This document shows positions 2,755 through 20,098 of a stretch of 64,000 bases of DNA, one piece after another. The stretch comes from Desulfomicrobium macestii (lineage in GTDB: Bacteria; Desulfobacterota; Desulfovibrionia; Desulfovibrionales; Desulfomicrobiaceae), in NCBI RefSeq assembly GCF_014873765.1, contig NZ_JADBGG010000023.1, positions 1-64,000 of the forward strand, read 5' to 3'. The first letter of the stretch is position 1, and the number at the start of each line of letters is the position of its first letter. Position numbers and translations under genes: made by a program. The notes under the pieces were generated by a model, which saw nothing but the letters and a program-made list of their open reading frames with translations, searched no databases and had not been told where the DNA came from.

Positions 2755-3149
2755 GGTTTTTTGATGTGCCGGGCCGTGCACAGGGCGCGCAGATCGTCGT
2801 TCAGGATGACGGCCTGGGCCGAGGCCCTGGCAAGGTCGCCGTCGTGGGCCATGCAGATGCCGAGGTCCGCGCTGATCAGGGCCGGGGCGTCGTTGACCCC
2901 ATCGCCGACCACGGCCACGTTGTATCCTTCTGCTTTTAGTTGGCAGACCACGCGTGCCTTGTCCTCGGGCGTCAGTTCCCTGCGTACGCCAATCACGCCG
3001 AGCAGGGAGCCCAGGTGCGCTTCCAGATAATCGAAGTCAAGCAACCCGTGACGCAGCACCCCGCCCTTGAGCCGGATACGGCGCGGCAGTTTATGAACCA
3101 CGCGCGGGTGCTGTTTGCGGATGGCGGGCACGCCAGGAGAGGTGATCAT
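2755..3149 (-). pseudogene. Gutted heavy-metal (P1B) ATPase: N-terminal and phosphorylation-domain ends fused
   Basis: Reading from 3149, the N-terminal part (HPRVVHKLPRRIRLKGG, YLEAHLGSLLGVIGVR) resembles the N-terminal domain of P1B metal ATPases. After about residue 77 of the open frame it jumps to the C-terminal hydrolase part (ELTPEDKARVV, AVVGDGVNDAPALISADLGI), with the hallmark GDGVNDAPAL motif. The transmembrane helices, CPC-type metal site, TGES and DKTG motifs are all missing. An internal deletion of roughly 500 codons that kept the frame explains this. It cannot transport. Confidence 0.75.
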
Positions 3150-3390
3150 GATGCTCCCGGGTGCCGTGTTTCGCGAAAGAGGGAGGTGGTCAGTGTTTGG
3201 GGCCGCCACGTGTCTACTCCGTGTTCACGATTTCTTTGCATTTGGGAAAACCGGCATTTCCCCGGAATTTTCTGGCGTTCGGCGCTTCTGTAAGGCTTTT
3301 CCGCAAGACCTTGCCGGTGCTTCATTTTGGGCGGCCCCGATGCGCCGCGTTATCTTTTCCGGAAATGATTTATCCTTGTTTGGCCTGGGG

Positions 3391-3855
3391 TCAGTCCCGG
3401 CGGGCGGAGTTTTGTTTCATGATATCAAGGCATCTGTTCACATCCTCGGCCAGTTCCTGGAAGGCGTCACCCTTGCGGAAGCGCACGGGCTGAGCGGGGA
3501 AGTTTCCTTGCGCGGCGTCTTGCAGAGTCCTACGGATCTTGCAGACCGGGCCCGCGATGGAATGGGTGCGTGCAACGGTCCAGATGACGACGCCGGCCAG
3601 CATGAAGGCCGCGATGATTCCCGCCTTGGTCCAGAACATGCTGTCGGTATCCGCCCACAGGCGGTCGTTCAGGAAATAGATGTAGAACCAGCTGGTGGCC
3701 ATGGCGGTGACCAGCATGCAGACCAGGGCCATGAGCAGCATGTTTCCAGCCATGGTCAATTGGAACTTCTTGTCGATGAAGAGCTGCCGCCGCAGGATGC
3801 GTTTTACGAGGCAGCGGCAGTTCGTGTCGCACGTCTGTTCAAGAGTGGAATTCAT
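3391..3855 (-). CDS. Membrane HAMP-domain protein, last gene of pseudopilus operon
   Basis: Inner-membrane protein of 154 residues: a short N-terminal Cys-containing segment (CDTNCRC), two transmembrane helices (about 30-55 and 75-97) and a HAMP-like linker after the second helix (SIAGPVCKIRRTLQDAAQGN). There is no kinase, methyl-acceptor or GGDEF output domain. Start 3855 is preferred over ATG 3867 because GGAGTACCCC directly precedes it. It is 24 bp from the GspG-like gene, so probably co-transcribed. A role in signalling or in anchoring the assembly platform is inference; proteins of this layout occur as stand-alone sensors without output modules. Confidence 0.75.
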   Translation of the reverse strand: MNSTLEQTCDTNCRCLVKRILRRQLFIDKKFQLTMAGNMLLMALVCMLVTAMATSWFYIYFLNDRLWADTDSMFWTKAGIIAAFMLAGVVIWTVARTHSIAGPVCKIRRTLQDAAQGNFPAQPVRFRKGDAFQELAEDVNRCLDIMKQNSARRD

Positions 3856-3879
3856 GGGGTACTCCATTGCGCAACAGAT

Positions 3880-4260
3880 TCAGGGTCCCGTGATGCGCAG
3901 GTCGTCAAGAGTGTTGGGAAGGCCATCGGGTCCGGCGCTTGAGAGCATGAAACGTTTGCGGTCCTCGCTTGAGGTGTAAATCAACAGAGTGTTCCAATGA
4001 TCGTACCCCAGCTTGTCGGTTGGGCTTTCCTTGAAATTGGCCTTCATCCAGCTCATGAAGTCGTCCTGCTCTGGATAGCGGCCCGTCTTCATGAGCTGGT
4101 AGTCGAGCATGGTGCCAATGCTGCGTAGGTCGGCGGCGGTGGCCAAATGGCGCGCGCTCTCAACGGTTTCGTCGTAGAATCTGGTGAATTCGTCAGCATT
4201 TCCGCCGATGACGCCAATGGCAAGGCCCGCCACGAGGAGCCGCCTGATGATATCAACCAT
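3880..4260 (-). CDS. GspG-like protein lacking a prepilin leader
   Basis: A protein of 126 residues with one N-terminal hydrophobic segment (LLVAGLAIGVIGG). Its C-terminal end, YDHWNTLLIYTS ... FMLSSAGPDGLPNTLDDL, matches the C-terminal fold of GspG major pseudopilins, where a similar D/N-rich loop binds calcium. The usual G-F-T-L-x-E leader and methylation site are absent, so it cannot be processed by a prepilin peptidase in the normal way. It may be a periplasmic, membrane-anchored partner of the pseudopilus. ATG 4260 is 29 bp downstream of the preceding gene's stop. Confidence 0.7.
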   Translation of the reverse strand: MVDIIRRLLVAGLAIGVIGGNADEFTRFYDETVESARHLATAADLRSIGTMLDYQLMKTGRYPEQDDFMSWMKANFKESPTDKLGYDHWNTLLIYTSSEDRKRFMLSSAGPDGLPNTLDDLRITGP

Positions 4261-4289
4261 GAATGGGCCTCATCGAGTCTTATGGGTGT

Positions 4290-4853
4290 TTACGCATTGC
4301 TCGTTGCTTGCGCCTGACGGACGGCTCTTGCCTGAGCCTTGCGTTCCTCCCGTTTCACATGCCACAGGGCCACCGGCGACAGGCAGGACAGCACTCCGAG
4401 GATGATGGCGATGCGTTTCCAGCTTGTTTCCCAATAGTATCTGGTCTTGGTCACATAGGTATAGATATCAACAGGTTCGCCGCCGTCCTTCGGCTGGTGC
4501 CGCCAGATTCCTCCGGCGCCGCGCTGGATGCGCATGCTGTCCTCGAAGGATTTGTTGCCCTTCTTGTCCAGGGTGATGAAGCGGACCAGGGCCGTATCGC
4601 CTTCCTGTTCAACGGCAACGAATTCCTTGACCACGAAGCGGTTCTCGGTGGCAGGGGTGTTGTCGCTGTAAAGGAGGCGGTGCACGTAGGACTCGACGAA
4701 ATAGGCCACGTCGTCGATGGCGGGGCGGTCTTCCTTCAGTTCAACCTTGACCCGGTCCGCCGTGCTGTGCGCAAGGGCCTGTCCTGCAGTCAGGATCACG
4801 GTGCACGCGACTATCCATAAAATCATGTTTGTCTTAGCCGTGCTTGTGGTCAT
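4290..4853 (-). CDS. Unknown exported protein with C-terminal membrane helix
   Basis: A 187-residue protein with an N-terminal signal sequence (MILWIVACTVILTAGQALA), a predicted periplasmic domain of about 110 residues (contains YFVESYVHRLLY and FEDSMRIQRG) and a transmembrane helix near 150-168 followed by a basic cytoplasmic tail (KREERKAQARAVRQAQ). I do not recognise a family. Its start overlaps the end of the parvulin gene by 20 nt, which suggests translational coupling and a role in the same pseudopilus complex. Confidence 0.75.
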   Translation of the reverse strand: MTTSTAKTNMILWIVACTVILTAGQALAHSTADRVKVELKEDRPAIDDVAYFVESYVHRLLYSDNTPATENRFVVKEFVAVEQEGDTALVRFITLDKKGNKSFEDSMRIQRGAGGIWRHQPKDGGEPVDIYTYVTKTRYYWETSWKRIAIILGVLSCLSPVALWHVKREERKAQARAVRQAQATSNA

Positions 4854-5712
4854 GACCGTCCTCCGGGTTCAAGAAATGCTGCAGTTTGTGCTCGTCGACC
4901 TTGAGCTTGTGCTCACTCTTGAGTTGCGTATAGACCTGCTCCCAGGCTTCGCGGTACTTGGAATAGAGCAGGTCGTTGCGGACATAGGCCTTCTTTTCCT
5001 CGAAGTCCGGGGCTTCGAAGGAGGTCTTGTCCGTGACCTGGAACAGGTACCAGTCGTTCTTGATGCGCACGGGTTCGGATATCGAGTTGATTTCCAGATT
5101 CTCGATGGCCGCGCGCCAGTCAGGGCGGTAGCTGGTGATGGCCCGCTTGCCTGCGTAGCCTCCGTCCTCGCGTGTGGAGTTGTGGGTTGACAACTCCTGG
5201 GCCGCTGTCTCGAAGCTCTCCTCGCCAGCCAGGATACGTTCCCGCACAGTTTTGAGCACGTTCTTGTCGGGATTCTCGATGACACGCACGCCGTATTGGG
5301 TCGGTGGGATGTAGCTGGCGATGTTGGCGTCGAAATAGGCCCGAACTTCCTCTTCAGTCAGGGAATCGCGGTCGAGCTGGGGTACCAGGTGGTCCTGCAT
5401 GACCTTCAGGAAAAGATCGGACATGAACTCATGAATTTCGGCCCGGATGCGCGGATCCTGATGCAGCTTCTCCTTTAGGGCCTTGGCGATGATCATCTCC
5501 ATGTTCACGGCGTGTTCGTAGACGAACTCCGGGGTGATCCTGTCGGGGTCCTTGTTGAACCGGGAACTCTTCTTCATGATGGCCTGATGAGCCTTGAGAT
5601 CCTCCAGGGTCAGGCTGCCGCCGTCAAAGGTGACCACGGCGTTGTCGTTCTTGGTCTGGTTGCAGCCTGCCAGGAAAAGCAGGCACAATATCACGAGCGC
5701 TAGATTCTTCAT
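4834..5712 (-). CDS. Lipoprotein peptidyl-prolyl isomerase (SurA/PrsA parvulin type)
   Basis: A 292-residue protein with a lipoprotein signal (LAGC, Cys 17), a helical SurA-N-like segment (about 30-135), and a parvulin domain around 140-235 with YGVRVIENPDKN, GEESFETAAQELS, EDGGYAGKRA and the closing SEPVRIKNDWYLFQVTDKT. It ends in an acidic/His tail (GHDHKHG). These enzymes assist folding of exported proteins. A dedicated one inside a pseudopilus operon suggests that a pseudopilin, the secretin or an exported substrate needs help in the periplasm. GGAGAGAAAC precedes the ATG. Confidence 0.9.
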   Translation of the reverse strand: MKNLALVILCLLFLAGCNQTKNDNAVVTFDGGSLTLEDLKAHQAIMKKSSRFNKDPDRITPEFVYEHAVNMEMIIAKALKEKLHQDPRIRAEIHEFMSDLFLKVMQDHLVPQLDRDSLTEEEVRAYFDANIASYIPPTQYGVRVIENPDKNVLKTVRERILAGEESFETAAQELSTHNSTREDGGYAGKRAITSYRPDWRAAIENLEINSISEPVRIKNDWYLFQVTDKTSFEAPDFEEKKAYVRNDLLYSKYREAWEQVYTQLKSEHKLKVDEHKLQHFLNPEDGHDHKHG

Positions 5713-5747
5713 GTTTCTCTCCGTTATGGTTGCGGGAATCGTCCCCG

Positions 5748-6956
5748 TTAATTTGCACCGTACATGGCCAGCATTCCGGCCACGAGTCCCCAGGCCACGT
5801 AGCCGACCACCCCGCCCAGGACGATGATGAGCATGGGCTCGATCATGGCCGTCATGCGCGAGATCTTGTCCTGCAGGATCTTTTCGTGCAGCTGTCCCAC
5901 GGTGTGCATGGCCTGGTCCATGAGCCCCGAGTGCTCGCCGATCTTGACCATGGCCTTGACCATGGGCGTGAAAAAACGGTCGCTTGCAAAAGCCGAGGAC
6001 AGGGTTTCACCGGCCACGACCTTGTTGTTCATGTGCTGGATCTGCGCCCGCGCCGCTTCGTTGGTCACGGTTTCGGACGCGGCCCGCAGGGCGTCGACCA
6101 GGGTGATGCCGCTCTCGAGCAGCGCGGCCAGGGTCTTGGAGAACTGCACGATGACCCCGAAGCGGAAAATTGGGCCCAGGACCGGGATATGGATTTTGTA
6201 CCTGTCATAGATCAGTCGCGAGGCGGGGATGGTCAGCATGAGCGCGAAGCCCAGGGCAGCTGCGGCCGTGGTGGCGATGATGGTCATGGCGTTTTTGGTC
6301 AGGAAGTCGGCCGTGTCGAGCAGGAACTGGGTGTTGGCGGGCAGCTTGGCTCCGCCCAGCAGGATGGCGAACTTTGGGATGACGAAAACCACCAGGAACA
6401 CGACTACGACCACAGAGACGACGACCACCACCGCCGGGTAGATCATGCTGATGATCATCTTGGAGCGCAGGGCCGCCCTGGCCTCCAGGTATTCGGAGAT
6501 GCGCTCCAGGACCACGTCGAGGATGCCGCCGAGTTCACCGGCGCGGATCATGTTCACGGCCACGATGGGAAAAACACGGGGGTGCTCTGCCATGGCCGAA
6601 CTCAAGGGCTCACCGCCTTCGATTTTCCGGCGCACCTTCTCCAGCACGCTTTTGAGTTTTCTGTTTTCGGTCTGCTCGTGGAGGATTTCGATGGATTCGG
6701 TCACCGTCACCTGGGAGGCCATCAGCGCCGAAAACATGCGGAAGAAGAGTACGATGTCCTTGGTGCCCACCCGGCCGAGCATGGCCAGCGCGTCCCCGGC
6801 GCTGGGAGAACCGCCCGCCTGGGTCTCGGCCACGTCCGTGATCATGATCCCCTGGGCGCGCAGGCGTTCGGCGGCGGCGCCCAGGTCCGAGGCCTGCACC
6901 ACTCCCCTGGCCCTGTCGCCCTTGGCGTTAAATCCGCTGTATTTGAATTGTGGCAT
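5748..6956 (-). CDS. gspF: GspF/PilC-type inner-membrane platform protein
   Basis: A 402-residue protein with the normal length and plan for GspF/PilC: two homologous T2SSF cytoplasmic helical domains (about 70-195 and 272-395), each starting FFRMFSALMASQVT / FSKTLAALLESGIT, and three membrane helices (about 170-190, 220-240, 375-397). It forms the base on which the pseudopilus is assembled, next to the GspE ATPase. It lies 10 bp downstream of gspE in the same operon. Confidence 0.95.
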   Translation of the reverse strand: MPQFKYSGFNAKGDRARGVVQASDLGAAAERLRAQGIMITDVAETQAGGSPSAGDALAMLGRVGTKDIVLFFRMFSALMASQVTVTESIEILHEQTENRKLKSVLEKVRRKIEGGEPLSSAMAEHPRVFPIVAVNMIRAGELGGILDVVLERISEYLEARAALRSKMIISMIYPAVVVVVSVVVVVFLVVFVIPKFAILLGGAKLPANTQFLLDTADFLTKNAMTIIATTAAAALGFALMLTIPASRLIYDRYKIHIPVLGPIFRFGVIVQFSKTLAALLESGITLVDALRAASETVTNEAARAQIQHMNNKVVAGETLSSAFASDRFFTPMVKAMVKIGEHSGLMDQAMHTVGQLHEKILQDKISRMTAMIEPMLIIVLGGVVGYVAWGLVAGMLAMYGAN

Positions 6957-6966
6957 GATCCCTTTC

Positions 6967-8613
6967 CTACTCGATGGTCACGCGCATGATTTCTTCGGGG
7001 GTGGTCAGTCCGGCGCGGAGCTTGGCGATGCCGTCCTCGCGCAGGGTGCGGAAGCCTTTGCGCTCGATGGCCGCATCGCGCAGGGTCTCGGGCGTGGCCG
7101 CGGCCATGATGTGATCTTTGAGACTCGTGTCCACCTCCAGCAGTTCGTAGATGCCCATGCGCCCCCGGTAGCCGAGGTGGCAATGCGCGCAGCCCGTGCC
7201 GCGCCGGATGGGAAAAGGCTCGCCGTCAAGGCCGAGCATGCGCATCTCGGCCGAAGTGATCATGACCTCCTCCCCGCATTCCTTGCAGACCTTGCGCACC
7301 AGGCGCTGGGCCAGCACGGCCCGTACCGAGGCCGCCACCAGGAAGGGCTCGGCGCCCATGTCGATCATGCGGCTGAAGGCGCTCGGCGCGTCGTTGGTGT
7401 GCAGTGTGGAGAGGACCAGATGGCCCGTGACGGCGGCGCGCAGGGCGATGCGCAAGGTCTCGCTGTCGCGGATCTCGCCGACCATGATGATGTCCGGGTC
7501 CTGGCGCAGGATGGCGCGCAGGGCGTCGGCGAAGGACAGCTTTTCCCCGGCGTCGACCTGGGTCTGGTTGACCCCGCGTACGGTAAGTTCCACAGGGTCT
7601 TCGATGGTGGTGATGTTGGTGGTCTCCGAGCGCAGCAGCTGCAGGGAGCCGTACAGGGTGGTGGATTTGCCGGAGCCCGTGGGGCCGGTGACCAGCACGA
7701 TGCCGTAGGGCGTGCGCAGGAGTTTTTTGAAAAGGTCGAGCATCTCGGGTTCCATGCCCAGCCCATCCAGATCGATGATCTCGTCGTGGGGCGGGAGCAG
7801 GCGCAGCACTCCCTTTTCCCCGTTGACCACGGGTAGAATGTTGGCGCGTACATTCACTCCGTCGATGGTCAGGTCCAGACTTTGGGGGGTGAAGGCAAAG
7901 GAGCCGTCCTGGGGCTTGCGCCGCTCAGCGATGTCCATGCCGCCCATGACCTTGATGCGCGAAATGAGCCTGTTTGCCAGGTCATAGGGGAGTTCCTCGG
8001 TCCTCAGCAGCATTCCGTCCACACGGAAGCGCACGATGAGGGCGTCCCTCTCCGGCTCAATATGAATGTCCGAGGCACCCATGTTGATGGCCCGGACCAT
8101 AAGCTTTTCCAGCATCTCGATGACAAAACCCGAGTCGTCGATCTCCACCCTGGTGTTCAGCTTGATGGAGGTGTCGAAGTCGCGGCTGAAGAACATGTTC
8201 TGCATCTTGCGCAGCCGGTTGGGCGAGGTCAGGACCAACCGGATCTGACGCTTGGCCAGGCGTGAGATGGTCTGTAGCATGGCTTGGGGCAGAGGTCCGC
8301 TGCAGGCCAGGAGCAGTTCGCCACCCGGGCCGGAGCCTACGGGCAGCACGCCAGCCTTGAGGGAGAGCTGCTTGGGAATGGCCAGGGTCACGCCCTTTTC
8401 GATGGTGTCCACGGAACTTTTGAACAGGGGGATGCCCAGGAACTCGCCCAGATATTCGGTCAACTGGTCGTCACTGAGGAGCCCTTCGCGTACGGCTATG
8501 GTGCCGATCTTTTCCCTGACCATGCGCTGTGCCGCAAGGAGTCGGGTCAGGTCATCGCGTCGGATTGCTCCCTTTTCGATCAGAAATTCGCCGAAGCGTT
8601 CGAGTCGGGTCAT
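6967..8613 (-). CDS. gspE: GspE/PilB-type assembly ATPase
   Basis: Start 8613 gives a 548-residue protein with a GspE-N domain (MTRLERFGEFLIEKG to about 70), a middle domain, Walker A GPTGSGKSTT at 310-319, an Asp box and Walker B (QDPDIIMVGEIRDSET), a His box and a tetracysteine zinc site (CKEC ... CAHC). These are hallmarks of extension ATPases. The ATG overlaps the stop of the PilT-like gene (ATGA), so the longer upstream frame is not used. It powers addition of pseudopilin subunits. Confidence 0.95.
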   Translation of the reverse strand: MTRLERFGEFLIEKGAIRRDDLTRLLAAQRMVREKIGTIAVREGLLSDDQLTEYLGEFLGIPLFKSSVDTIEKGVTLAIPKQLSLKAGVLPVGSGPGGELLLACSGPLPQAMLQTISRLAKRQIRLVLTSPNRLRKMQNMFFSRDFDTSIKLNTRVEIDDSGFVIEMLEKLMVRAINMGASDIHIEPERDALIVRFRVDGMLLRTEELPYDLANRLISRIKVMGGMDIAERRKPQDGSFAFTPQSLDLTIDGVNVRANILPVVNGEKGVLRLLPPHDEIIDLDGLGMEPEMLDLFKKLLRTPYGIVLVTGPTGSGKSTTLYGSLQLLRSETTNITTIEDPVELTVRGVNQTQVDAGEKLSFADALRAILRQDPDIIMVGEIRDSETLRIALRAAVTGHLVLSTLHTNDAPSAFSRMIDMGAEPFLVAASVRAVLAQRLVRKVCKECGEEVMITSAEMRMLGLDGEPFPIRRGTGCAHCHLGYRGRMGIYELLEVDTSLKDHIMAAATPETLRDAAIERKGFRTLREDGIAKLRAGLTTPEEIMRVTIE

Positions 8614-9767
8614 CTCGAAAAACACCTCTTGTACTCGGGAGCCTTCACGGGTTCCGGTCCGGCGGCCAGACGGCGGGCCGAGAGGCGCTGACGGAGCAGG
8701 TTTTCGTTGCGGGCAGCGGACAGCCCTGTCTCCATGCCGATCTTGCCTTCGGTTATAAGCCGGATCAGGCACTGCTCCATGGTCTGCATGCCGAGCTGCA
8801 TGCCCGTTTCGATGGAGGAGTAGATCATGTCGTCCTTGCCCTGACGGATGAGGTTGGAGATGCCGGGGGTGGAGACCATGATCTCCACGGCCGGAATGCG
8901 TCCCGTGCCCGAGGCGTTGGGCAGCAGACGTTGCGAGATCACGGCTTTGAGCGTCGAGGAAAGCTGCTGGCGGATCTGGGCCTGCTCGCCCGCCGGGAAC
9001 GCGCCGACCAGACGGTTGATGGTCGAGACGCAGTCGCGGGAGTGCAGGGTGGAGAAGACCAGGTGCCCGGTCTCGGCGGCCATGATGGCCGTGCGCATGG
9101 TCTCCAGGTCCCGCATTTCGCCCACCAGCAGGACGTCCGGGTCGGCGCGAAGGGCGTCGCGCAGGGCGTCGGCGAAGGTCGGCACGTCGGAGTGCAGTTC
9201 GCGCTGGTGGATGATGCTCAGGTTGTTCTGGTAGACGTACTCGATGGGGTCCTCGATGGTGATGATGTTGCGCCGTGAGGTGGCGTTGATGTCATCTAGG
9301 ACTGTAGCCAGGGTGGTGGACTTGCCCGAGCCGGTTACACCCGTGACCAGGATCAGTCCGTCGCGCAGTCTCGTCAGTTCGGCGATGGCTCCGGGCAGGC
9401 CGAGGCTCTCGAAGGATGGGATCCCCGCATGCAGGAGGCGGGCGGCTACGCTCATGGCGCCGCGCTGGTAGTACACGGCGATTCGGAAGCGGCCTTCGCT
9501 GGCGCTGACCGCAAAATCCACGGAACGCTTGTCTTTCAAGACCTGGGCGTGCCGGGCGGTGAGCATTTGGCCCACCAGAATCTCGATGTCAGCTGGACTG
9601 TACGGATCGCAGCCAGCCCGTTGCAGTTCCCCCTTGATGCGGAAAATGGGCGGCATGTTGGCCGTGATGTGCAGATCAGAGGCCTTGCGGCGCACGGTTT
9701 CGCGGAACAGCGCCGTCATGTCGCAGGGCCTCTGCTCGGTCACGGGAGGGATGGGGCACAGGGTCAT
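8610..9767 (-). CDS. pilT: PilT-like retraction ATPase
   Basis: A 385-residue protein with Walker A GVTGSGKSTT, Walker B (DPDVLLVGEMRDLET), His box GHLVFSTLHS, and SNLIRQGKDDMIYSSIETG, close to the AIRNLIREGK signature that marks PilT retraction motors. There is no zinc tetracysteine, also as in PilT. Its ATG overlaps the secretin stop (ATGA), and its own stop overlaps the gspE start in the same way. Ordinary type II secretion systems lack a PilT, so its presence suggests that this pseudopilus can retract. Confidence 0.93.
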   Translation of the reverse strand: MTLCPIPPVTEQRPCDMTALFRETVRRKASDLHITANMPPIFRIKGELQRAGCDPYSPADIEILVGQMLTARHAQVLKDKRSVDFAVSASEGRFRIAVYYQRGAMSVAARLLHAGIPSFESLGLPGAIAELTRLRDGLILVTGVTGSGKSTTLATVLDDINATSRRNIITIEDPIEYVYQNNLSIIHQRELHSDVPTFADALRDALRADPDVLLVGEMRDLETMRTAIMAAETGHLVFSTLHSRDCVSTINRLVGAFPAGEQAQIRQQLSSTLKAVISQRLLPNASGTGRIPAVEIMVSTPGISNLIRQGKDDMIYSSIETGMQLGMQTMEQCLIRLITEGKIGMETGLSAARNENLLRQRLSARRLAAGPEPVKAPEYKRCFSR

Positions 9768-11575
9768 GGCTGGCCTGTCTTGCTGGTTTCTGGTTCGAGG
9801 ATGTTCTCCTTGCCCTCGGTGATCTGCTCGTGGGAGCTCTTGCGGCGCATGAATTCTCTGGATACGGCCTCGGCCTGGGCCGGGTGCATGATGACGTGCG
9901 GAGTGAGCAGGATCACGGTTTCGGTCTTCTTCTTGGTGTTCTTGATTTCGCTGAACAGCAGGCCCAGGCCCGGGACATCCCCCAGGCCCGGCACCTTGTT
10001 GGTGTTGTAGTCCAGGGACTCGCGGATGATGCCGCCGATGGCGATGGTCTGCCCGGACCTGGCCGAGAGGATGGATTTGAGTTCGCTCTTGCTCTTGCCG
10101 TCCAGTGGGAACTCCAGCACCTCACCGCTTTTCTCGTTGACCACGGAGATGCTGCTGTAGTTGAGGATGGGCGCGGAGATTTCGGCCTCGAACTCCATGG
10201 TCACGGTGCTGTCGGCGTTGATGAAAGTGGTCATCTCCACGTCCGTGCCGAGCTCCTCGCGGATGATGTTGACCTGAAAGGTGGTGATGGTGTCGCCCTG
10301 GTCGCCCACGGCCACGGTCTTGGTGGTCACGTCGTCGCGCAGGGGCGTCTCCTCGCCGACGAAGAATTCGACCTTGCTGTTGTTGGCCGTCATCAGGAAT
10401 GGTGTGGAGATGATCTCGGCTCGGCCCGCGTTCTCATACAGAGCCAGACGCGCGTATAATTTTTCAGAGTTGAATAAAAAGTTCAGAGTGTTGGAACCCA
10501 TGGACGTGCTGCCACCTAGGCCCAGAGTCGCGGCATAATCGCCCATGATGCCGCTGCCCGAGATTACATCCCAGTTCACGTCGAAGAAGCTTTCGAACCC
10601 GTCGCCTAGCGTCAGTTGCAAAATCCTGATTTCCAAAAGCACCTGGCTGGTGGGCGTGTCCAGGGCCTCGATGATGCGGCCCATCTCGTTCAGGAGCCCC
10701 CCGTCCAGGGAGCGGGCCACGATGCAGTTGTTGCGCTTGAAGACCGTCAGGATGGCCATGGTCGGCTTGGCGCCAGCCGATCCGCTTCCTCCCATTCTGG
10801 CTCCGGTGGTGGCCGGTTCGAGCAGGGGTACGTCCTGTCCGTCACCTTTGCCCGCGTCCACGGACAGGGTCGGGGAGCCGCCGCTGTTCTGGTTGATCAC
10901 GGCCGCTTTTTCGGGGTCGATGTGGCCGTAGATCTTCTCGTCCTCGATCACCGCCAAGTGTACTTCCTCGCCCATGGATGCCTTGATCAGCTTGGCCATG
11001 TCCGCCGCATTGGTGTAGCGCACGTAGAAGGCCCGGGTCTGGTCGCTCTGTCGGGCCTGGATGTCCTGCACGTATTCCTCGCGGGTCATGAGGGTGATGA
11101 TGCCCTGGCCTTCACGGTACCACAGGTTGTTCAGGCGGCAGATGGCGTTCAGGGCCTCGCGCAGGCTGATGTTCTGCAGAAAGATGTTGACGGGACTTGC
11201 GGCCACGGTGTTGGTGGCCACCACGTTGTAGCCGCAGATGTCGGTCAGCAGTTCGGCGATGGCCCTTACGTGCACGCCGCGAAGCATGAGGGATCCGATA
11301 TGGGCGTCCATGCCTCCGCGCAGGGGAGCGTTGGCCTGGGCCGTCATGTCGCGCAGGGTCGTCTCCACATCATCAACGGGTTGCCCCTTGATGACGCGCA
11401 CGATGGGGCCGGAATCCTCCAGCAGGGGCAGCGCCTCGGCGGAGAGGAAGCCCTGGTTCCCGGCGGTTTTGAAGGTGGGGCCGCCCTTTGGGGCGATTTT
11501 TTCCTTCATTCCGGCGCATCCGGCGAGCAGCAGCATTGTCGCGCACAGAATCGCAAGTCGCACGGAGCTGCTCAT
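9764..11575 (-). CDS. gspD: Secretin (GspD/PilQ/MshL-like) outer-membrane lipoprotein
   Basis: A 603-residue protein with lipobox LLAGC (Cys 20), so it can reach the outer membrane as a self-lipidated secretin without a separate pilotin. Then come an STN/N0-like domain (about 85-170, ISLREALNAICRLNNLWY), an N1-like region, a Gly/Ser linker (SGGSPTL ... GARMGGSGSAGAKP, about 235-280) and the secretin core (about 310-570) with VPGLGDVPGLGLLF and the ending TVILLTPHVI. It forms the outer-membrane gate. It starts 4 nt inside the PilP-like gene. Confidence 0.95.
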   Translation of the reverse strand: MSSSVRLAILCATMLLLAGCAGMKEKIAPKGGPTFKTAGNQGFLSAEALPLLEDSGPIVRVIKGQPVDDVETTLRDMTAQANAPLRGGMDAHIGSLMLRGVHVRAIAELLTDICGYNVVATNTVAASPVNIFLQNISLREALNAICRLNNLWYREGQGIITLMTREEYVQDIQARQSDQTRAFYVRYTNAADMAKLIKASMGEEVHLAVIEDEKIYGHIDPEKAAVINQNSGGSPTLSVDAGKGDGQDVPLLEPATTGARMGGSGSAGAKPTMAILTVFKRNNCIVARSLDGGLLNEMGRIIEALDTPTSQVLLEIRILQLTLGDGFESFFDVNWDVISGSGIMGDYAATLGLGGSTSMGSNTLNFLFNSEKLYARLALYENAGRAEIISTPFLMTANNSKVEFFVGEETPLRDDVTTKTVAVGDQGDTITTFQVNIIREELGTDVEMTTFINADSTVTMEFEAEISAPILNYSSISVVNEKSGEVLEFPLDGKSKSELKSILSARSGQTIAIGGIIRESLDYNTNKVPGLGDVPGLGLLFSEIKNTKKKTETVILLTPHVIMHPAQAEAVSREFMRRKSSHEQITEGKENILEPETSKTGQP

Positions 11576-11955
11576 AGCAGGAAGACCTCATAGGAGAAGG
11601 TCTCGGGATCTTCACCTTTTTTGGAGTGTTTTGGCCCGGCCTCGAAGCTAATGCTGCGGGGGGTGACCTTCATGATCTTGAACTCGTGGGGCAAACCCTG
11701 GAAGTTCACGGCGATGGTGTCCCCGCCCTTGAACACCGCCAGTTCATCGTAGCCGTTTATCTGGACGATGACCCGTTCAACCTTGCCCGCCATGACGATG
11801 CCCATGACCACCACTTGCTGAATGGCCTGGGCATACTGGTAGGGATTGGTGATGGCCTCGGTTTGCCTGAACGGGTCGCGCTGGGCGTTATCCGCCCTGG
11901 CCGGAGCCGATTGGAGCAGAAGTGCCAGGAGCAGGGCCGCGATTATCTTGTGCAT
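11572..11955 (-). CDS. pilP: PilP/GspC-like periplasmic linker
   Basis: A 127-residue exported protein: signal peptide (MHKIIAALLLALLLQSAPARA), a conserved RDPFRQ motif just after it (as in PilP and GspC-type proteins) and a small beta domain (about 50-125). PilP links the inner-membrane PilNO complex to the secretin. Start 11955 is preferred to ATG 11970 because AGAGG lies 6 nt upstream. Confidence 0.8.
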   Translation of the reverse strand: MHKIIAALLLALLLQSAPARADNAQRDPFRQTEAITNPYQYAQAIQQVVVMGIVMAGKVERVIVQINGYDELAVFKGGDTIAVNFQGLPHEFKIMKVTPRSISFEAGPKHSKKGEDPETFSYEVFLL

Positions 11956-11972
11956 GTAAAACCTCTGCATGT

Positions 11973-12515
11973 TCAGATCATGAGATTGAAGGTGATTTCC
12001 AGAAATTCGCCGTTACCGGCCGTAAGTGCTACCTCGTCGACCCTGATGGCGTCGGGCATGTTTCGCAGCGACTCCAGCAACTGCAGAAAGCCGTGAAAGG
12101 AGCCGGACAGGCTGAGCTGGAAGAGGTTCCATTCCAGTTGCAGCAGGGTGTCCGATTTGCGCCCTCCCGGAGTTAGGGACACTACCTTCAGTCCGCTTGC
12201 CGCCACATGCTCGTTGATCTGACGCAGCATGTGGGTGACCTCCCTGGCCTCTCCGGTGTGCATGAGGGTGCCCTTGAGCCTTTTGTTCACTTCCTCAAGG
12301 TCCTTCTTGGCGTTTTCCAGTTCATGTTTGACCTGGATCAGGGGCGGGATTTGCTTCAGCCCGTTGACCTCTCCGACGACCTTGTTCAGGGCCGCCACGG
12401 TCTTTTTGAACTCCTTTTCCTGGGGTTCGTAGACCTTCTTCATGTAGAAGAAGGTACAGGCGATGATGATGGCGGCCATGATGCCGTACTTTTCGAACTG
12501 GGACAGTTTCTTCAT
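11973..12515 (-). CDS. pilO: PilO/GspM-like inner-membrane alignment protein
   Basis: A 180-residue protein: short cytoplasmic N-terminus (MKKLSQFEKYG), one membrane helix (IMAAIIIACTFFYM), a coiled coil (about 35-95, EKEFKKTVAALNKVV, LENAKKDLEEVNKRL) and a ferredoxin-like domain with LSLSGSFHGFLQLLESL. It pairs with PilN. The start is taken at MKKL, 12 bp after the PilMN stop, rather than in the upstream extension that overlaps PilMN. Confidence 0.88.
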   Translation of the reverse strand: MKKLSQFEKYGIMAAIIIACTFFYMKKVYEPQEKEFKKTVAALNKVVGEVNGLKQIPPLIQVKHELENAKKDLEEVNKRLKGTLMHTGEAREVTHMLRQINEHVAASGLKVVSLTPGGRKSDTLLQLEWNLFQLSLSGSFHGFLQLLESLRNMPDAIRVDEVALTAGNGEFLEITFNLMI

Positions 12516-12526
12516 GCTCACGGCAT

Positions 12527-14089
12527 TCACCCCTTGATGTTGACGGTCATCTCGAATTCCAGCCGTCCGACCCCGGCCGTGATTTTGTCGATCACGGCCG
12601 AGTCGCACCAGCCCCGCTCCTGTAATTTGGCAGCGTAGGATCCCAGCGCCTCCAGATCAAAAGCGCTGCCCGTGAGCTTGAAGGCGCTTTTATCCGCCTG
12701 GGCAAAGGATTTGAGGACAATGTGTTCGGGCATGTCCTGCCCCATGTCCCGGAAGAATTCGATGAATCTGTTCATTTCCTGATCGGCCTGGGTTTCCATG
12801 TAGTGCAGCCGTTTTCCGGCTTGCTCCACTTCCTTGCCCAGCTTGTCCTTCTCGGCGAGGAGCCCCTCGTAGGTGGCTATCTCGGCCTTTCTCTTTTTGA
12901 GGTCGGTTTCGTAGATGGCGATTTGCGCCTTGTAGTCCTGTTCCTGGTATCTCATGAAGGCGTAGTGCCCGGTCAGGCTCAGGACCAAAATGCCTGTGAT
13001 GGCCACGGGCACGAGGTAGGCGCTCTGTCGGATACGCACGGAGAGGGGCACGCTGTCGTCGATGCCGGCTTGACGCGCGCCCGCGCCATGCAATTCGCGC
13101 ATGGCCGCGCCGACCACAGTGCCGTATACGGCGTGGGAGGGGTCTCCCTTGGCGTCAGCCAGTCCGGCCGAGCGAGGCAGATCCAGGGGCATCGCGCCAT
13201 TGGGGCAGAATTCGGAGATGAAGTCGACGATGTCCCTGTCCGTGGCTCCCAGACCCGAAAGAATCAGGGGTTCGGGCTGGGGCACCTGCCGCACCGTGAA
13301 GCGCATGGTGTCGACCAGGTCCTGGGAAACGAGCTCTCCTGAAACATGGGCAGCAATGGACTCCTGGCTGAGGCTCAGCGTGTTGATCTGCTGGGGGATG
13401 CCGCCGCTCAGGACCGCGAAATTCGAATAGTCCTGTCCTACCTCCAGCACGGCCCGAGGGGTGTCGCGGCCGTCCATGTGCAGGACGTAGTAGAAGCAGG
13501 CTTCGGGCGGATAGATGCGCGTCAGGCGAAAGCCCGCCACCTTGAAGCGCTCCCGCACGGCCCGGTACACGTTGCGTTCGATGGCGGCCACGTTCACCGT
13601 GGTCTGGTCGTCGTCCTCGTAGACGATGTCGCCGGGCTTGGCTTTGAGTTCGGGTTTTCGTTCCACGGCGATGAGGGCCGTGACGCCGTTTATGCCCGTG
13701 TACGGCTCCACTTCCCACTTCACGGCCTCGCGCAACTGGTAGGCTTTCATGCCCCTGATCTTGGCCCGGTCCATGAGCAGTTCGAAGGCCCGGGCCAGGG
13801 GCGAGACGAGAATGGCCGCACCGCCGCTCACGCCCAGGCGTTCGGCCAGGGCCTTGAGGCTGGCCACGTCGGGCAGGTCTTCGTGGGTGTCGGGGCGCTT
13901 CAGGGACGCGTAGTCGATGATTTCGAAGCCCCGGCCCTGGCGGCGGACCACGGCGGCGCGGATGTCGTCGCCGGCCATCTCCACGGCCAGGATGCGCCTG
14001 CCGGGCGAGGGAAGACGAAAACCGCCGCTGCTTGATCCTTTCTTGGAGGAACTCGCCCGCCACGGGCGCGGCATCTTGGGAAAACGCAT
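12527..14089 (-). CDS. PilM-PilN fusion (GspL-like)
   Basis: A 520-residue protein. Residues 30-330 are an actin-like PilM domain (ILAVEMAGDDIRAAVV, YSNFAVLSGG, LILSGLGA). A membrane helix near 340-360 (LVPVAITGILVLSLTG), a coiled coil (DLKKRKAEIATYEGLLAEK) and a PilN-like periplasmic fold follow. In type IV pili these are two proteins; in type II secretion GspL has this joined layout. The Ser/Lys-rich N-terminus (SSSKKGSSSGG) before the PilM core is unusual. Confidence 0.9.
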   Translation of the reverse strand: MRFPKMPRPWRASSSKKGSSSGGFRLPSPGRRILAVEMAGDDIRAAVVRRQGRGFEIIDYASLKRPDTHEDLPDVASLKALAERLGVSGGAAILVSPLARAFELLMDRAKIRGMKAYQLREAVKWEVEPYTGINGVTALIAVERKPELKAKPGDIVYEDDDQTTVNVAAIERNVYRAVRERFKVAGFRLTRIYPPEACFYYVLHMDGRDTPRAVLEVGQDYSNFAVLSGGIPQQINTLSLSQESIAAHVSGELVSQDLVDTMRFTVRQVPQPEPLILSGLGATDRDIVDFISEFCPNGAMPLDLPRSAGLADAKGDPSHAVYGTVVGAAMRELHGAGARQAGIDDSVPLSVRIRQSAYLVPVAITGILVLSLTGHYAFMRYQEQDYKAQIAIYETDLKKRKAEIATYEGLLAEKDKLGKEVEQAGKRLHYMETQADQEMNRFIEFFRDMGQDMPEHIVLKSFAQADKSAFKLTGSAFDLEALGSYAAKLQERGWCDSAVIDKITAGVGRLEFEMTVNIKG

Positions 14090-14101
14090 CAGTTCATATC
14101 C

Positions 14102-16117
14102 TTAAGGCAAGAGGCCAAAGTCGTCGGTGTCCACGGTCAGGGCCGTTTTTTGCCCACTGCCGGGAGCGGCCGTGACGGGGAAGAGTAGGATAGTTCCGCT
14201 CTCGCTCGCCTCGGGTTCGTCGTCTCCGTCGGTGTCGTTCCAGAAGATCAGGCAACGCCCGCCGGTGGTGGCATTGGTTGCCGAAAAATCGGAGTAGGCG
14301 AAGACAGGCGGGCTGGTGGCGTTGCCTGCGGCCCAGTCGCCAGCGATGGCAGCTTCAAGGATGTCCACACCGGCCACGGGAGCCTGGGTGGAGGCGAGAA
14401 AGCGGGCTTTGGTCGTGGTATCGGCATTGATGACTGTGAAGCGTTGCAGTTCGAAAAAGCCCTGCCGCCACTGTGTGCCGCTCACGATGAGGTGGCGGTT
14501 GTCCTTGTTATCGTTGAGCAAGGCATCGTAGTCATCCACGTCAAAGGCTTCCGTGAGAATCGTAGGGTCGGTGCCGTTGTTGCTGCCGAAGTCGAACTGT
14601 CCGTCGAACCCGCGTGACAGGACCAGCATGGCGTCGTTGGTGTCATCCTTGAAAAAGAGGAATTCCCGGCCCCAAGCGTCGCGCAGCACGTTGTCCGCGC
14701 CTGCCTTAAAGGGAGCTCCGATATAGGGGTGCCGCCAGCCAAGTCCAAAGCGGGTGGCGTTAAGGTCATCGTCGGCCAAGCCCGGTTTGTCGGTCCACAG
14801 GCCGCGTGGTTGGCCCGTGGTGTAGGGGGTGTCCGAGTCGTCGGCGTTGTTCCAGAAATCGTCGGAAGGATCGGTTGCCGTGTCTTTGTCGTCCCAGCGG
14901 AAAAGCTCCGGCCAGGCGGTCATGTCGCCGGTGTAGCCGGTGTTGAGCCCAAGCAGGCCTTCGCCGATCAGGGCGCGGCGGATGCGGTCCAACAGTTCTT
15001 CGGTCTCCCTGGTTTTGCGGGAGTCTTCGGCGTCAAAGATGGCTTTCCAGTCGCGGGAGTGGAGCTTCATGACGATGTTGTCGCGGTTCTTGGGGTGGTC
15101 CGGGTCATAGGCTTTGGACATGATGTCGTCGGCGTTTATGGTCCAGTGAAAGGACGAGCATTCGCCTTTGGTCGGGTAGAAACCCTCTCTGTCCGGGCCT
15201 TCGGACAGAATCCAGAAAAGGGTGTGCCCGGGGCTGTCGGGATCGGCGGTGATGAAGAAGCGCAAGGCCCGGTCCCAGCCGTCGGCCAGGCGGTCGGCCG
15301 TCTGCAGGAGGCGGAACGATTCCTTGTCATCATAGAATTCTCCCAGTTCACCGTCTGAGGGTGTGTAGTCACCGTCTTCCCAGGTCGCGTTGGTGACTTC
15401 CCAGCGTGGCTGAAGATTGGCGTACATGTCGTCGTCCGTGGCCCAGTGGTCGGAGTCGGCGGGTTTTCCTTCCTGGGGCGGGGTCAGGTACGGCCCTTTC
15501 CAACCGTCGCCGAGCACTTCGCCGGGCGCGGGGTGTCCGGGGTGTTCGGGAAGGTCGACAGGAAGATCTTCGACATACCGGGTCCATAGACCACGCGGTT
15601 GGCCTTCGTTTTCCGTTTCCGGGCCGCCGATGTGGTCGTCGTATTTGTCTTTGTCGTCGATGAGCTTGCGGTAGGGCTGGTTCCAGACCCATCGATCACC
15701 AGCGAAACGACCCGAAGGACGATAGAATACCAGAGTCGGGTCCATCCGGTATTCAGGGCCCTGGCCCACGTTTTTGCCGGACAGGGTGGCCGGGACGGAC
15801 CAGTCGACACCCAGAACATTGGGCTTGATCTCGGCCCGCGCTTCCCACAGGTCCGGCCACTCCCGCATGTCGCCCACGTAGCCGCCGATGATGGGGCGGC
15901 CCTGCTCGTCGAAGCGGCCCTCGGGGCCAAGGATGGCGTCGCGGATCTGGTCCATGCGCTCGCGGGTGCGGCGCTCGCGTTCCATGTCGTCGAGCATGCC
16001 CACGGCCGGGACCATCATGGCCGCCAGGAAGCCGAGGATTGTCAGCACCACCAGCACTTCCAGTAGGGTGAAGCCGCGTGGGGCAGTGAAAAAAAGATGT
16101 ATGGCCGGGCGGCGCAT
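14102..16117 (-). CDS. Giant pseudopilin with two tandem GspG-like modules
   Basis: A 671-residue protein. The class III leader is cut after Gly15: G-FTLLEVLVVLTILGFLA, with Glu at +5. Two similar modules follow. Module 1 has RMDQIRDAILG, YVGDMREWPDLW, QPRGLW and GDGWKGPYL; module 2 has LLDRIRRALIG, YTGDMTAWPELF, QPRGLW and GLGWRHPYIG, then a GspG-like DAWGREFLFF. The C-terminal part is rich in Asp, Thr and Gly. Normal pseudopilins have 130-300 residues, so this is far larger and may be the tip or adhesive subunit. Its ATG overlaps the preceding gene's stop. Confidence 0.88.
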   Translation of the reverse strand: MRRPAIHLFFTAPRGFTLLEVLVVLTILGFLAAMMVPAVGMLDDMERERRTRERMDQIRDAILGPEGRFDEQGRPIIGGYVGDMREWPDLWEARAEIKPNVLGVDWSVPATLSGKNVGQGPEYRMDPTLVFYRPSGRFAGDRWVWNQPYRKLIDDKDKYDDHIGGPETENEGQPRGLWTRYVEDLPVDLPEHPGHPAPGEVLGDGWKGPYLTPPQEGKPADSDHWATDDDMYANLQPRWEVTNATWEDGDYTPSDGELGEFYDDKESFRLLQTADRLADGWDRALRFFITADPDSPGHTLFWILSEGPDREGFYPTKGECSSFHWTINADDIMSKAYDPDHPKNRDNIVMKLHSRDWKAIFDAEDSRKTRETEELLDRIRRALIGEGLLGLNTGYTGDMTAWPELFRWDDKDTATDPSDDFWNNADDSDTPYTTGQPRGLWTDKPGLADDDLNATRFGLGWRHPYIGAPFKAGADNVLRDAWGREFLFFKDDTNDAMLVLSRGFDGQFDFGSNNGTDPTILTEAFDVDDYDALLNDNKDNRHLIVSGTQWRQGFFELQRFTVINADTTTKARFLASTQAPVAGVDILEAAIAGDWAAGNATSPPVFAYSDFSATNATTGGRCLIFWNDTDGDDEPEASESGTILLFPVTAAPGSGQKTALTVDTDDFGLLP

Positions 16118-17082
16118 CAGTTGATGTCTCCGTCGGCGTTGAAGTCGATACCCCAGCCGGTCATGTCCACGGAGGGGTGAATGAGGCCCTCACTGTCCAG
16201 AATGGCGAAAAAGGCCGGGTGCTGAGCCTCGTAGGCGTCCAGGGTGCGGCGAGCCGCCGTGGTCAGTGCTGCACCAGGCAAAACGCCTTCGGCGGCGTAG
16301 GCTGTAATGGTGCCATTGGAGCTTGTGCCCAGGGGATTGTCGAGGCGTAGCCGCTGTGCCGTGGCCTTGAGTCGGGGCAGGAGCAGGCTGTACCATTTCC
16401 ACTCGTAGTTGATGGGGTCCTGGCCGCTTTCCGGGCAAGTGGGCGCGCCGTGGACCTGTCCGTTCTTGATCAGGGAGGTTTCCGAACCCAGCCCGAAGAC
16501 CATGCGAAAAAGGGTTTCAGGGTGATCGCGATCTTGCTCAGTCAAATCGGCGGTAATGCTGCCCGTGGCGTTGTCCCCGCCTCCGGTCATGAGCACGGCC
16601 ACATTGGCAGCCACGGGTTGCATGTTGGGAGAGCGGGTGGCCACGTCGCGGTCATAAGGAGAATTATAGTTGTAGACGTGCAGTACGCCCCTGCCGCGCA
16701 GTTCTAAGGCTTCAGCCTCGCTCAGATGATGGATGTGCAGACGGTGGCGTTGGTCCATCCTGTGACCGAGGACTTCGTATCCGGTTTCCGGGTCCTGGTC
16801 CGAGACCATGGGCTTGTGGTAGGCCCCCGTATTTTTATCTACGGAAACGATATTGATCATGCCCGTTGGGTATTTGCCGTTTTTTTGAAGATCCGCAGTG
16901 ACCAGTCCGATGAGGGCTGCCATGTTGGTGCGGGTGACTGTGGCCAGGGCCTCGCTCCCGATCCCGGCCAGGCGCGGGGCGACCATTGCGATGACAAAGC
17001 CCAGAATGACCAGCACTACCAGCAGCTCCATGAGGGTGAAGCCGCGCTGGCGGAAATAATGTGGCTGGGGTGATCTGGACAT
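16117..17082 (-). CDS. Large pseudopilin (type II secretion/type IV pilin N-terminus)
   Basis: A 321-residue protein with leader cut after Gly14 (QRG-FTLMELLVVLVILGFVI, Glu at +5) and a conserved APRLAGIGSEALATVTRTNM helix. The body has no family I know. It shares the layout of the next pseudopilin upstream: LSEAEALELRGRGVLHVYNY here versus LNAREAAELKTLGIVSVLNL there, RMVFGLGSETSLI versus RIVLGFGPENGLV, LLLPRLKATAQRL versus IVLPRLEATAERI, and a WGIDF ending versus WGIDI. The two are paralogues. Confidence 0.88.
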   Translation of the reverse strand: MSRSPQPHYFRQRGFTLMELLVVLVILGFVIAMVAPRLAGIGSEALATVTRTNMAALIGLVTADLQKNGKYPTGMINIVSVDKNTGAYHKPMVSDQDPETGYEVLGHRMDQRHRLHIHHLSEAEALELRGRGVLHVYNYNSPYDRDVATRSPNMQPVAANVAVLMTGGGDNATGSITADLTEQDRDHPETLFRMVFGLGSETSLIKNGQVHGAPTCPESGQDPINYEWKWYSLLLPRLKATAQRLRLDNPLGTSSNGTITAYAAEGVLPGAALTTAARRTLDAYEAQHPAFFAILDSEGLIHPSVDMTGWGIDFNADGDIN

Positions 17083-17176
17083 GAATGCGCGGGTCCTTGA
17101 AAAGAATGACGGGTGAAGAAAAAGGGCGGGGAGAGGATCTCCCCGCCGGATGTCAACCAGAGGTCAGATAAGATGT

Positions 17177-18253
17177 TTAGTCGATGTTTCCAACAGTACC
17201 AGCGATGTCGATGCCCCAGAATTCTTCGTCGTCAGCCGGGAACATGTGGCCTTCCGGGCACTGGGTGGCGTACTGCCATTTGGGCTGTGCCGTGGTGATG
17301 TCGAAGGTACGAACTTTCAGGTTGTCGCCGTTGGTGGCGATAACGTAATCCGCTGCAGGCTCGTCATCATATGCAACAGCGACCAACTTGCTGGGAGTAG
17401 CCGTAAAGTCGGTTAATGTGCCGGTTTCGATCCTTTCAGCAGTTGCCTCCAAGCGCGGAAGTACGATGTTGTAGTCGTTGTAAGTCACGTTGTCGGTGTT
17501 CTGGATACCGCCGGGGCAATGAGCTGCATTGGCGACAATGCCGGAGGTGACCAATCCGTTTTCTGGTCCAAATCCCAGGACGATGCGCCCGAACCAGTCA
17601 GGCTCGCCCCAATTGCGTTCGTCTGTATGAACGTCGAAAGTCGGATCGTCGGCATTATCTTCAGCCCCCATGCCAACCATGGCCACGGCGATGCCGCTGT
17701 CAATCAGGACGGAATCCATACTTGCATTACGAGCATTAGCGGCTACGTATGTATAGCCCAAGTCATCAGCCTGGGTGAAGCCAGATTTAACAGCACCGTT
17801 GTCGTCGTCCATGGCATCATATGCGTTCAGATTAAGAACGCTGACGATTCCCAAGGTTTTCAGTTCCGCAGCTTCACGAGCATTGAGGTAGTGCATGCGA
17901 AAATGATTGCGGTCCATAAATTCAGATGCCAAAGTTTCAGGCCCATTATCTGGATCGTCATCAGAAACGGCTGGAAGCTGGTAGGTGTTGGCACCGATTT
18001 CTTCCACCAAGTTGGTCAGCTTATTGGGAAAGCGACTAGTCTTCTCAAAATATCCGCTCATCATAGACACCATGCGGTTCTGGTTGCTATCGCAAACCGT
18101 ATCTACCGCGTCACCCGAAATACCCGCCAACCGCGGCGCGACCATGGCAATCAAAAAGCCCATGATGGTCAGGACGACCAGGATTTCGAGCAGCGTGAAG
18201 CCTGCTTGCCGTTTCATTTTTTTGGCCAATTTCTTGGCGATGCTTGCGTGCAT
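17177..18253 (-). CDS. Large pseudopilin, first gene of the operon
   Basis: A 358-residue protein with leader cut after Gly18 (KRQAG-FTLLEILVVLTIMGFL, Glu at +5) and APRLAGISGDAVDTVC. The acidic body (DDDPDNGPET, MGAEDNADDPTFD) ends in GIDIAGTVGNID. Start 18253 is chosen for GGGAGA upstream and a normal-length leader; longer upstream frames would run into the riboswitch. Being first behind the leader it is probably the most strongly expressed subunit. It is paralogous to the next gene. Confidence 0.88.
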   Translation of the reverse strand: MHASIAKKLAKKMKRQAGFTLLEILVVLTIMGFLIAMVAPRLAGISGDAVDTVCDSNQNRMVSMMSGYFEKTSRFPNKLTNLVEEIGANTYQLPAVSDDDPDNGPETLASEFMDRNHFRMHYLNAREAAELKTLGIVSVLNLNAYDAMDDDNGAVKSGFTQADDLGYTYVAANARNASMDSVLIDSGIAVAMVGMGAEDNADDPTFDVHTDERNWGEPDWFGRIVLGFGPENGLVTSGIVANAAHCPGGIQNTDNVTYNDYNIVLPRLEATAERIETGTLTDFTATPSKLVAVAYDDEPAADYVIATNGDNLKVRTFDITTAQPKWQYATQCPEGHMFPADDEEFWGIDIAGTVGNID

Positions 18254-18347: not shown

Positions 18348-18438
18348 TTCCGGCGGCCCAGCCATCCCCAGCACCCGCCTGGGGATCCGTGACTTTCCGT
18401 CCTCCGGTTGCCCGGAGTTTGGCTATGGTGCGGAAATT
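18348..18438 (-). ncRNA. GEMM-I type riboswitch (cyclic di-GMP / cGAMP family)
   Basis: On the minus strand a conserved 5' strand with AGCCAAAC runs into a helix capped by a GNRA loop (CTCCGG-GCAA-CCGGAG, 18402-18417). The conserved ACGGAAAGTCACGG joint and a second helix ATCCCCAG/CTGGGGAT (18364-18371 with 18379-18386) follow, closing with GGCTGGGCCGCCG. This order, including the GCAA tetraloop and the GGAAAG joint, is the GEMM-I architecture. It lies ~95 nt upstream of the first pseudopilin start. The base at the ligand-selecting position reads as G by the simplest alignment, which favours cyclic di-GMP, but a one-nucleotide shift would make it A, as in cGAMP sensors. I see no clear terminator between it and the gene, only a T7 run just before the ATG, so the control mechanism is unclear. 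Confidence 0.8.
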
Positions 18439-18600: not shown

Positions 18601-18648
18601 TGTTGTGGTCAAATTTTTTAAATCGAATGTATTGATTTAGAACCCTTT

Positions 18649-18693
18649 TCGAACCGCCTTCCGGGACTGCCGGTCAGGGAAGGCGGTTCGAAG
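18649..18693. repeat. Perfect 15-bp inverted repeat (hairpin), copy B
   Basis: TTCGAACCGCCTTCC pairs with GGAAGGCGGTTCGAA around a 15-nt loop. Compared with copy A, one C-G pair has become T-A, so pairing is kept. Confidence 0.75.
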
Positions 18694-18823
18694 CAGGTTG
18701 ATCATGGTACGTTCAAGGCTTGCTGTCGGATTTCAAATCCGGTCCTTATTCTCAAGTCCTCCCCCTGCCCCGAGGGGGAGGACTGCCGCGTTTTGAGGAG
18801 TGTGGAGGTAGCGAGTGAAAATT

Positions 18824-19197: not shown

Positions 19198-20024
<827 letters not shown>

Positions 20025-20032
20025 TCAATCAC

Positions 20033-20066: not shown

Positions 20067-20098
20067 GGACCGTGCCTTCGAGCGCGGCGGGAGGACGT

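Follow-up and report, generated by a model that had tools for sequence, protein, structure and literature searches.

A type IV filament gene cluster with large pseudopilins and an apparently co-inherited PilT-family ATPase in Desulfomicrobium macestii

A pilus of type IVa (T4aP) kind is regarded as the ancestor of the type II secretion system (T2SS), PilT having often been lost on the way (PMC6668835), and the MSH loci of the mannose-sensitive haemagglutinin (MSHA) pilus carry no prepilin peptidase (PMC6668835). A survey by Denise et al. left unassigned 884 "generic" type IV filament systems, some with mixed T2SS and type IV pilus (T4P) components (PMC6668835). In Geobacter, mshE and pilT3 lie side by side, and Speers et al. 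proposed that PilT3 may serve a T2SS (PMC5065972). Here we describe a cluster of 14 genes at 3391-18253, minus strand, of a 64,000-nucleotide (nt) stretch of Desulfomicrobium macestii DNA (contig NZ_JADBGG010000023.1, positions 1 to 64,000; hereafter the window). Like the published two-gene Geobacter arrangement, it places an assembly ATPase beside a PilT outside T4aP; like some of the generic systems, as these are described, it mixes T2SS and T4P parts. We found no paper describing this cluster, the nearest accounts being that pair and that class, and since Geobacter is known to have MSHA-like loci with PilT next to them and the survey contains many generic systems, we regard its novelty as moderate. 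With a probability of roughly 0.6, we consider that the cluster encodes one self-contained type IV filament machine that belongs to a lineage separate from those of T2SS, T4aP and MSHA, is retracted by PilT and is used for adhesion or capture.

Protein identities were assigned using Pfam and NCBIfam hidden Markov model (HMM) searches. All 14 genes are open, co-directional and tightly packed, as described in an initial annotation made from the sequence, and the parts listed there (secretin, PilMN, PilO, GspF, GspE, PilT-like motor, three large pseudopilins, parvulin) were recovered by HMM matches or orthology. That annotation also described many 4-nt overlaps; we counted four (pilMN/pilO, pilP/secretin, secretin/pilT and pilT/gspE); the remaining gaps are mostly of 35 nt or less, with a maximum of 94. 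A gene of 73 amino acids (aa), absent from the earlier list, was added as a conserved fifteenth member, and the coordinates of pilO were corrected. For psA, the start at 18253 is most likely correct because the longer open reading frame, to 18442, runs over the riboswitch. The features are as follows:

18824-19045, minus: small conserved protein of 73 aa starting with GTG, at the head of the conserved locus (tblastn and alignment)
18349-18433, minus: predicted aptamer of a c-di-GMP-I (GEMM-I class) riboswitch within the leader of psA (Rfam RF01051)
17177-18253, minus: psA, pseudopilin of 358 aa with a GFTLLE motif (N_methyl PF07963, E 4e-8)
16117-17082, minus: psB, pseudopilin of 321 aa, a divergent psA paralogue at 36% (PF07963; alignment)
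14102-16117, minus: psC, giant pseudopilin of 671 aa with internal duplication of a GspG-like module (PF07963; hhalign)
12527-14089, minus: inner-membrane PilM/PilN fusion (GspL-like), 520 aa (PilN match; orthologues 43-49%)
11973-12530, minus: PilO (GspM-like), 185 aa (PF04350)
11572-11970, minus: PilP-like periplasmic protein, 132 aa (position and weak orthology)
9764-11575, minus: lipidated secretin, 603 aa (PF00263; LAGC lipobox)
8610-9767, minus: PilT-family retraction-type ATPase, 385 aa (TIGR01420; conserved motifs)
6967-8613, minus: GspE-like assembly ATPase of 548 aa that carries an MshEN domain and a tetracysteine zinc site (T2SSE; PF05157)
5748-6956, minus: GspF/PilC platform protein, 402 aa (PF00482)
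4834-5712, minus: parvulin-type peptidyl-prolyl isomerase lipoprotein, 292 aa (PF13145 and PF00639)
4290-4853, minus: HST signal-peptide protein, 187 aa, with a C-terminal transmembrane (TM) segment and predicted mature N-terminus HST..R (motif in five orthologues)
3880-4260, minus: GspG homologue of 126 aa that lacks a prepilin leader and keeps the SxGPDG...DD loop (PF08334; PDB 1t92)
3391-3867, minus: protein of 158 aa with two TM segments and a HAMP-like tail (HAMP_2 below threshold; conserved gene)

The type IV filament superfamily set is complete, comprising an assembly ATPase, a platform protein, a secretin and subunits with prepilin motifs. Among the NCBIfam models for parts of T2SS, T4aP or MSHA, a cut-off was reached by one product only, PilT, which scored 430 bits against a cut-off of 319 for the PilT/PilU family TIGR01420. 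Aligned relatives conserve its Walker A and B motifs and also its form of the PilT C-terminal motif, the SNLIRQGK already noticed in the initial annotation. Both cluster ATPases match T2SSE, GspE with 416 bits, and GspE missed the equivalog cut-offs for GspE (TIGR02533, 486 versus 630 bits) and PilB (TIGR02538, 491 versus 676). Similarly, the secretin (PF00263, E 1.5e-33, 116 bits; LAGC lipobox visible) missed those for GspD (TIGR02517, 140 versus 351), PilQ (TIGR02515, 128 versus 284) and MshL (TIGR02519, 104 versus 250). GspF (PF00482, 190 bits) is nearest to GspF models and fell short of their equivalog (TIGR02120, 334 versus 424). PilO passed its cut-off (35 bits versus 22), the PilN part of the fusion scored slightly below its own (21.1 versus 22.8), no family passed its cut-off for the PilP-like protein, and none of the cluster products matched GspC or GspH-K over cut-off. 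GspE carries the tetracysteine site together with an MshEN domain (PF05157 over cut-off). As a criterion for c-di-GMP binding by MshEN, we used two 24-residue motifs, each with a terminal Gln; the motif model NF053729 scored 44 bits against a cut-off of 38 with the second half of the motif degenerate, and aligned window-like copies lack the second-motif Gln, two of them having Lys instead of the first Arg.

No prepilin peptidase is encoded within the window, as previously stated; the genome has one elsewhere (C3:36764-37087). A search for paralogues in the same genome also recovered a separate PilT and PilU on contig C24 and PilM-Q-like genes on C1. Five more GspE-like ATPases (L029-L033) lie on C3, C15 and C16 with no obvious pilus genes adjoining.

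To survey the cluster, we combined a scan of genome contigs with a family sample (22 genomes) and a phylum sample (395 genomes). The contig scan gave seven related loci, all in metagenome-assembled genomes labelled Deltaproteobacteria, Proteobacteria, Desulfobacteraceae or Desulfoluna. Five of these (L036, L037, L039/G141, L040 and L042) keep most of the cluster in the order psA-psC-PilMN-PilO-PilP-secretin-PilT-GspE-GspF-parvulin-(small HST protein)-leaderless GspG-two-TM protein, so the comparison of gene order proposed in the initial annotation did find the same arrangement elsewhere, in at least five other genomes of Desulfobacterota type. Most products are about 45-70% identical between the window and these genomes, and PilT is present at every locus where that region is covered. 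The window and L037 have a second pilin resembling psA, as does the record of L042, further downstream. Less similar related clusters were found in G301, G024 and G111, that of G024 apparently being split over two contigs. On one G024 contig, the neighbours resemble exopolysaccharide chain-length and tyrosine-kinase genes, judged by a look at the sequence only. The cluster itself occurs in one family genome, the window's own, and in none of the rest of the genus; PilMN matches were found in 3 of the 395 phylum-sample genomes. No PilMN relatives were found in plasmids or viral contigs, so nothing points to carriage by plasmids or phages. An empty-site search through the CbiO neighbour found a relative in one congener only (52% identity). 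A Manganitrophus plasmid (L047, 889-9089) carries a mixed cluster with two prepilin-motif proteins, two GspE-like ATPases, GspF and PilT.

Phylogenies of four components place the cluster in a clade of its own. In the GspE tree, a seven-member window clade (support 100/100) leaves 15 Desulfobacterota T2SS GspE and 16 PilB references outside; the first GspE tree included one mis-picked PilT row (L085_2) and the second was built without it. In a reduced GspE tree, the T2SS references form one group (91/90), PilB another (100/99), and the window clade with G024 is recovered at 100/99. In the PilT tree, the window clade (100/99) excludes the other PilT of this genome and its PilU. For GspF and the secretin, quick trees with support from the Shimodaira-Hasegawa-like approximate likelihood ratio test only recovered the window clade at 100, with G024 and then G111 as outgroups (99), and T2SS secretins formed a separate group (99). 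Clusters of G045 and G083 group with MSHA, represented by one named reference, in the GspF and secretin trees (98 and 99), apart from the window clade. From these sequences, GspE, PilT, GspF and the secretin appear to share one history outside every sampled reference clade, and because PilT branches like the rest of the machine, it was apparently co-inherited with it. The trees proposed in the initial annotation thus recovered a separate clade, with no placement inside T2SS seen; this separation in four trees, the missed equivalog cut-offs and the conserved order support its description of the system as neither a standard T2SS nor a T4P.

The MSHA-grouping clusters of G045 and G083 (L134 and L136; Desulfobacterota) have two PilT-like genes adjoining GspE. 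Given such clusters and the Geobacter mshE-pilT3 pair, the earlier premise that PilT is absent from systems other than T4aP was too strong.

The three pseudopilins all match N_methyl, and orthologues are 56-69% identical for psA and 51-54% for psC. The two halves of psC match each other (hhalign E 1.3e-8), indicating a duplicated GspG-like module, and the module matches the profile of the leaderless GspG homologue weakly (E 8e-4, probability 24%). None reached the GspG major pseudopilin cut-off (TIGR01710, 88.85), the pseudopilins scoring 34-42 bits and the leaderless protein 25. An AlphaFold model of psC was discarded (predicted local distance difference test, pLDDT, 37), and the psA model (pLDDT 60) had no Foldseek match with E below 0.001. 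The leaderless GspG homologue passed T2SSG PF08334 (27.7 bits, cut-off 21) and resembles a solved GspG (PDB 1t92, E 2.8e-4) over a span including the helix and calcium-loop region. In all aligned orthologues (50-52% identical), its hydrophobic N-terminal segment has no prepilin cleavage motif, in agreement with the initial annotation.

As we picture the machine, GspE and GspF would polymerise a filament of psA and psB on the PilMN-PilO-PilP scaffold, with psC probably a tip or minor subunit. The filament would be pushed out through the lipidated secretin and depolymerised by the co-encoded PilT-family ATPase, its prepilins having been processed by the single peptidase of the genome; in the window strain, psA lies behind the predicted c-di-GMP-I-class riboswitch. 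The likely use would be in adhesion or capture, with the filament drawing material bound to surfaces back towards the cell, and the iron-uptake neighbours of relatives may suggest an iron- or mineral-related role. The machine is probably retractable, as the initial annotation held: the PilT cut-off, motifs and shared branching fit this, and it is from them that we infer retraction, as we infer extension, filament length, cargo and any iron role from the genes. The shortness, the large surface domains and the contact with minerals or cells that the same annotation proposed are conjectural.

The neighbourhood of the relatives bears on such a role. In G141, feoA-feoA-feoB-AraC lie upstream and DtxR-NifX-FeoA(x3) downstream of the cluster, co-directional with it. 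FeoB, DUF4198 and a Peripla_BP_2 protein lie upstream in L037, and DtxR, DUF3793 and a flavodoxin in G301. The window cluster has flavodoxin repeats on both sides, then CbiM, a Peripla_BP_2 protein and a TonB-dependent receptor. Seven genomes tested have none to two DtxR genes each, so two close neighbours are unlikely by chance, in a test made post hoc; in G418 and G419, DtxR sits on contigs separate from the cluster. A link of the machine to metal or iron is at most plausible from these neighbours. The fuller proposal, of a further type IV filament that acts as a retractable iron- or mineral-capture pseudopilus with large GspG-type pilins, an uncleaved GspG-like membrane control subunit and riboswitch switching in the window strain, we consider doubtful.

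Several points weigh against the filament machine that we favour or its iron use. PilT-like ATPases can have other roles. The G301 locus has no neighbouring pilins, PilMN or PilO. In none of the seven related loci did the riboswitch reach its gathering score, and a scan for Fur and DtxR boxes upstream of psA gave nothing above shuffles. The flanks read in L036 and L042 contain no iron-type genes, and the iron context was picked out post hoc.

The cluster could instead be a T2SS variant, in which a pseudopilus piston exports folded periplasmic proteins through the secretin, the parvulin folds the cargo and PilT recycles the pseudopilus. The single operon, secretin, GspE, a GspF nearest to GspF models, GspG-type pseudopilins and the GspG homologue are all T2SS-like. 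Fusion of PilM and PilN is itself the architecture of T2SS GspL and is therefore no evidence against a T2SS, as the initial annotation had taken it to be. Furthermore, the genome has no TIGR02533 GspE match of its own at the limit used, a union of the window GspE clade with T2SS was not rejected (approximately unbiased test, p-AU 0.18), and the proposal of Speers et al. for Geobacter PilT3 is of this kind. However, there is no recognisable GspC or GspH/I/J/K, the GspD, GspE, GspF and GspG equivalogs were all missed, T2SS references group apart in the GspE and secretin trees, and PilT is constant at the covered loci. Overall, we regard a T2SS variant as rather unlikely, if the rival with most in its favour. 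A machine of the favoured kind, T2SS-like with a co-evolving PilT retained, would make the step from T4aP to T2SS testable. It may be an additional lineage of the filament superfamily, with the uncleaved GspG-like protein as an unusual part, and the iron link, if true, would tie filament retraction to metal acquisition in anaerobes.

Less probable still is a divergent adhesion pilus of MSHA or T4aP type with unusually large pilins, that is, an ordinary retractable pilus with psA as major pilin. The PilT-family ATPase, PilO and PilP, with retraction expected, recall T4aP, and the MshEN-type ATPase, secretin and lack of a peptidase at the locus recall MSHA. psA is a full pilin with an N-terminal helix, and its modest model is weakly like a type IVb major pilin (Z 3.9). 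The window GspE clade joins MshE weakly in the reduced tree (83/40), and its union with PilB was likewise not rejected (p-AU 0.31). Against this, the PilB, PilQ and MshL cut-offs were missed, PilM and PilN are fused, the cluster has no small PilA-like major pilin, the T4aP-type genes of the genome are separate, and the GspF and secretin trees place MSHA elsewhere. A decaying or silent genomic island is very improbable. Its patchy occurrence in the two samples and the direct repeat bounding the cluster would fit one, but all 14 frames are intact, key motifs and order are conserved at the identities given above, and the riboswitch is matched over its full length.

That match (RF01051, 18349-18433) scored 50.9 bits against a gathering score of 35 (E 5e-7), and a variant model, RF03167, scored 51.8 on the same aptamer, under its own gathering score of 59. 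By its sequence, the aptamer is of the c-di-GMP-I class, with cyclic di-GMP (c-di-GMP) or cyclic GMP-AMP (cGAMP) as the predicted ligand. In Geobacter, cGAMP-binding riboswitches of this class stand before genes that serve growth on Fe(III) particles, namely those for pilus assembly, cytochromes and polysaccharides (PMC6456294). The psA leaders also share the motif AAGGAGGTGA, after which come an element of GGC...GCC type and GAAGG; the motif lies at 18501 (minus) in the window and at 2624, 6184, 6101 and 2473 in L036, L037, L039 and L040. This shared element may be a conserved leader RNA; neither the L036 nor the L037 copy gave a credible match in Rfam.

Homologues of the 73-aa gene lie upstream of psA in L036, L037, L039, L040 and L042; the more distant G111/L135 cluster also has one, upstream of its pilins. 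L036 and L040 differ in it by 8 synonymous and 4 nonsynonymous codons. The protein matched no known family, and neither did the HST protein, whose predicted mature N-terminal histidine is present in 5 of 5 orthologues; that it binds metal is only a guess. The parvulin has both a rotamase match and a visible LAGC lipobox, as expected of the lipoprotein first described. The last gene, called a HAMP protein in the initial annotation, is present and conserved, its HAMP similarity being below threshold (E 0.017).

Each flank of the cluster has a copy of a direct repeat bearing a flavodoxin (PF00258), the two being 92.6% identical over 1303 nt and 85% over 212 nt:

18638-20267, strand not applicable: right copy, overlapping the 73-aa gene (identity to left copy)
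770-2269, strand not applicable: left copy, bordering the cluster (identity to right copy; PF00258)

The core of the 73-aa gene is missing from the left copy, and adjoining this copy at 2706-3209 is a fragment resembling a P-type ATPase remnant (HAD domain only). Elsewhere in the window, two cobalamin riboswitches lie on the minus strand, at 24772-24972 and 27521-27633, one of them near the CbiM gene and one near a metE-like open reading frame.

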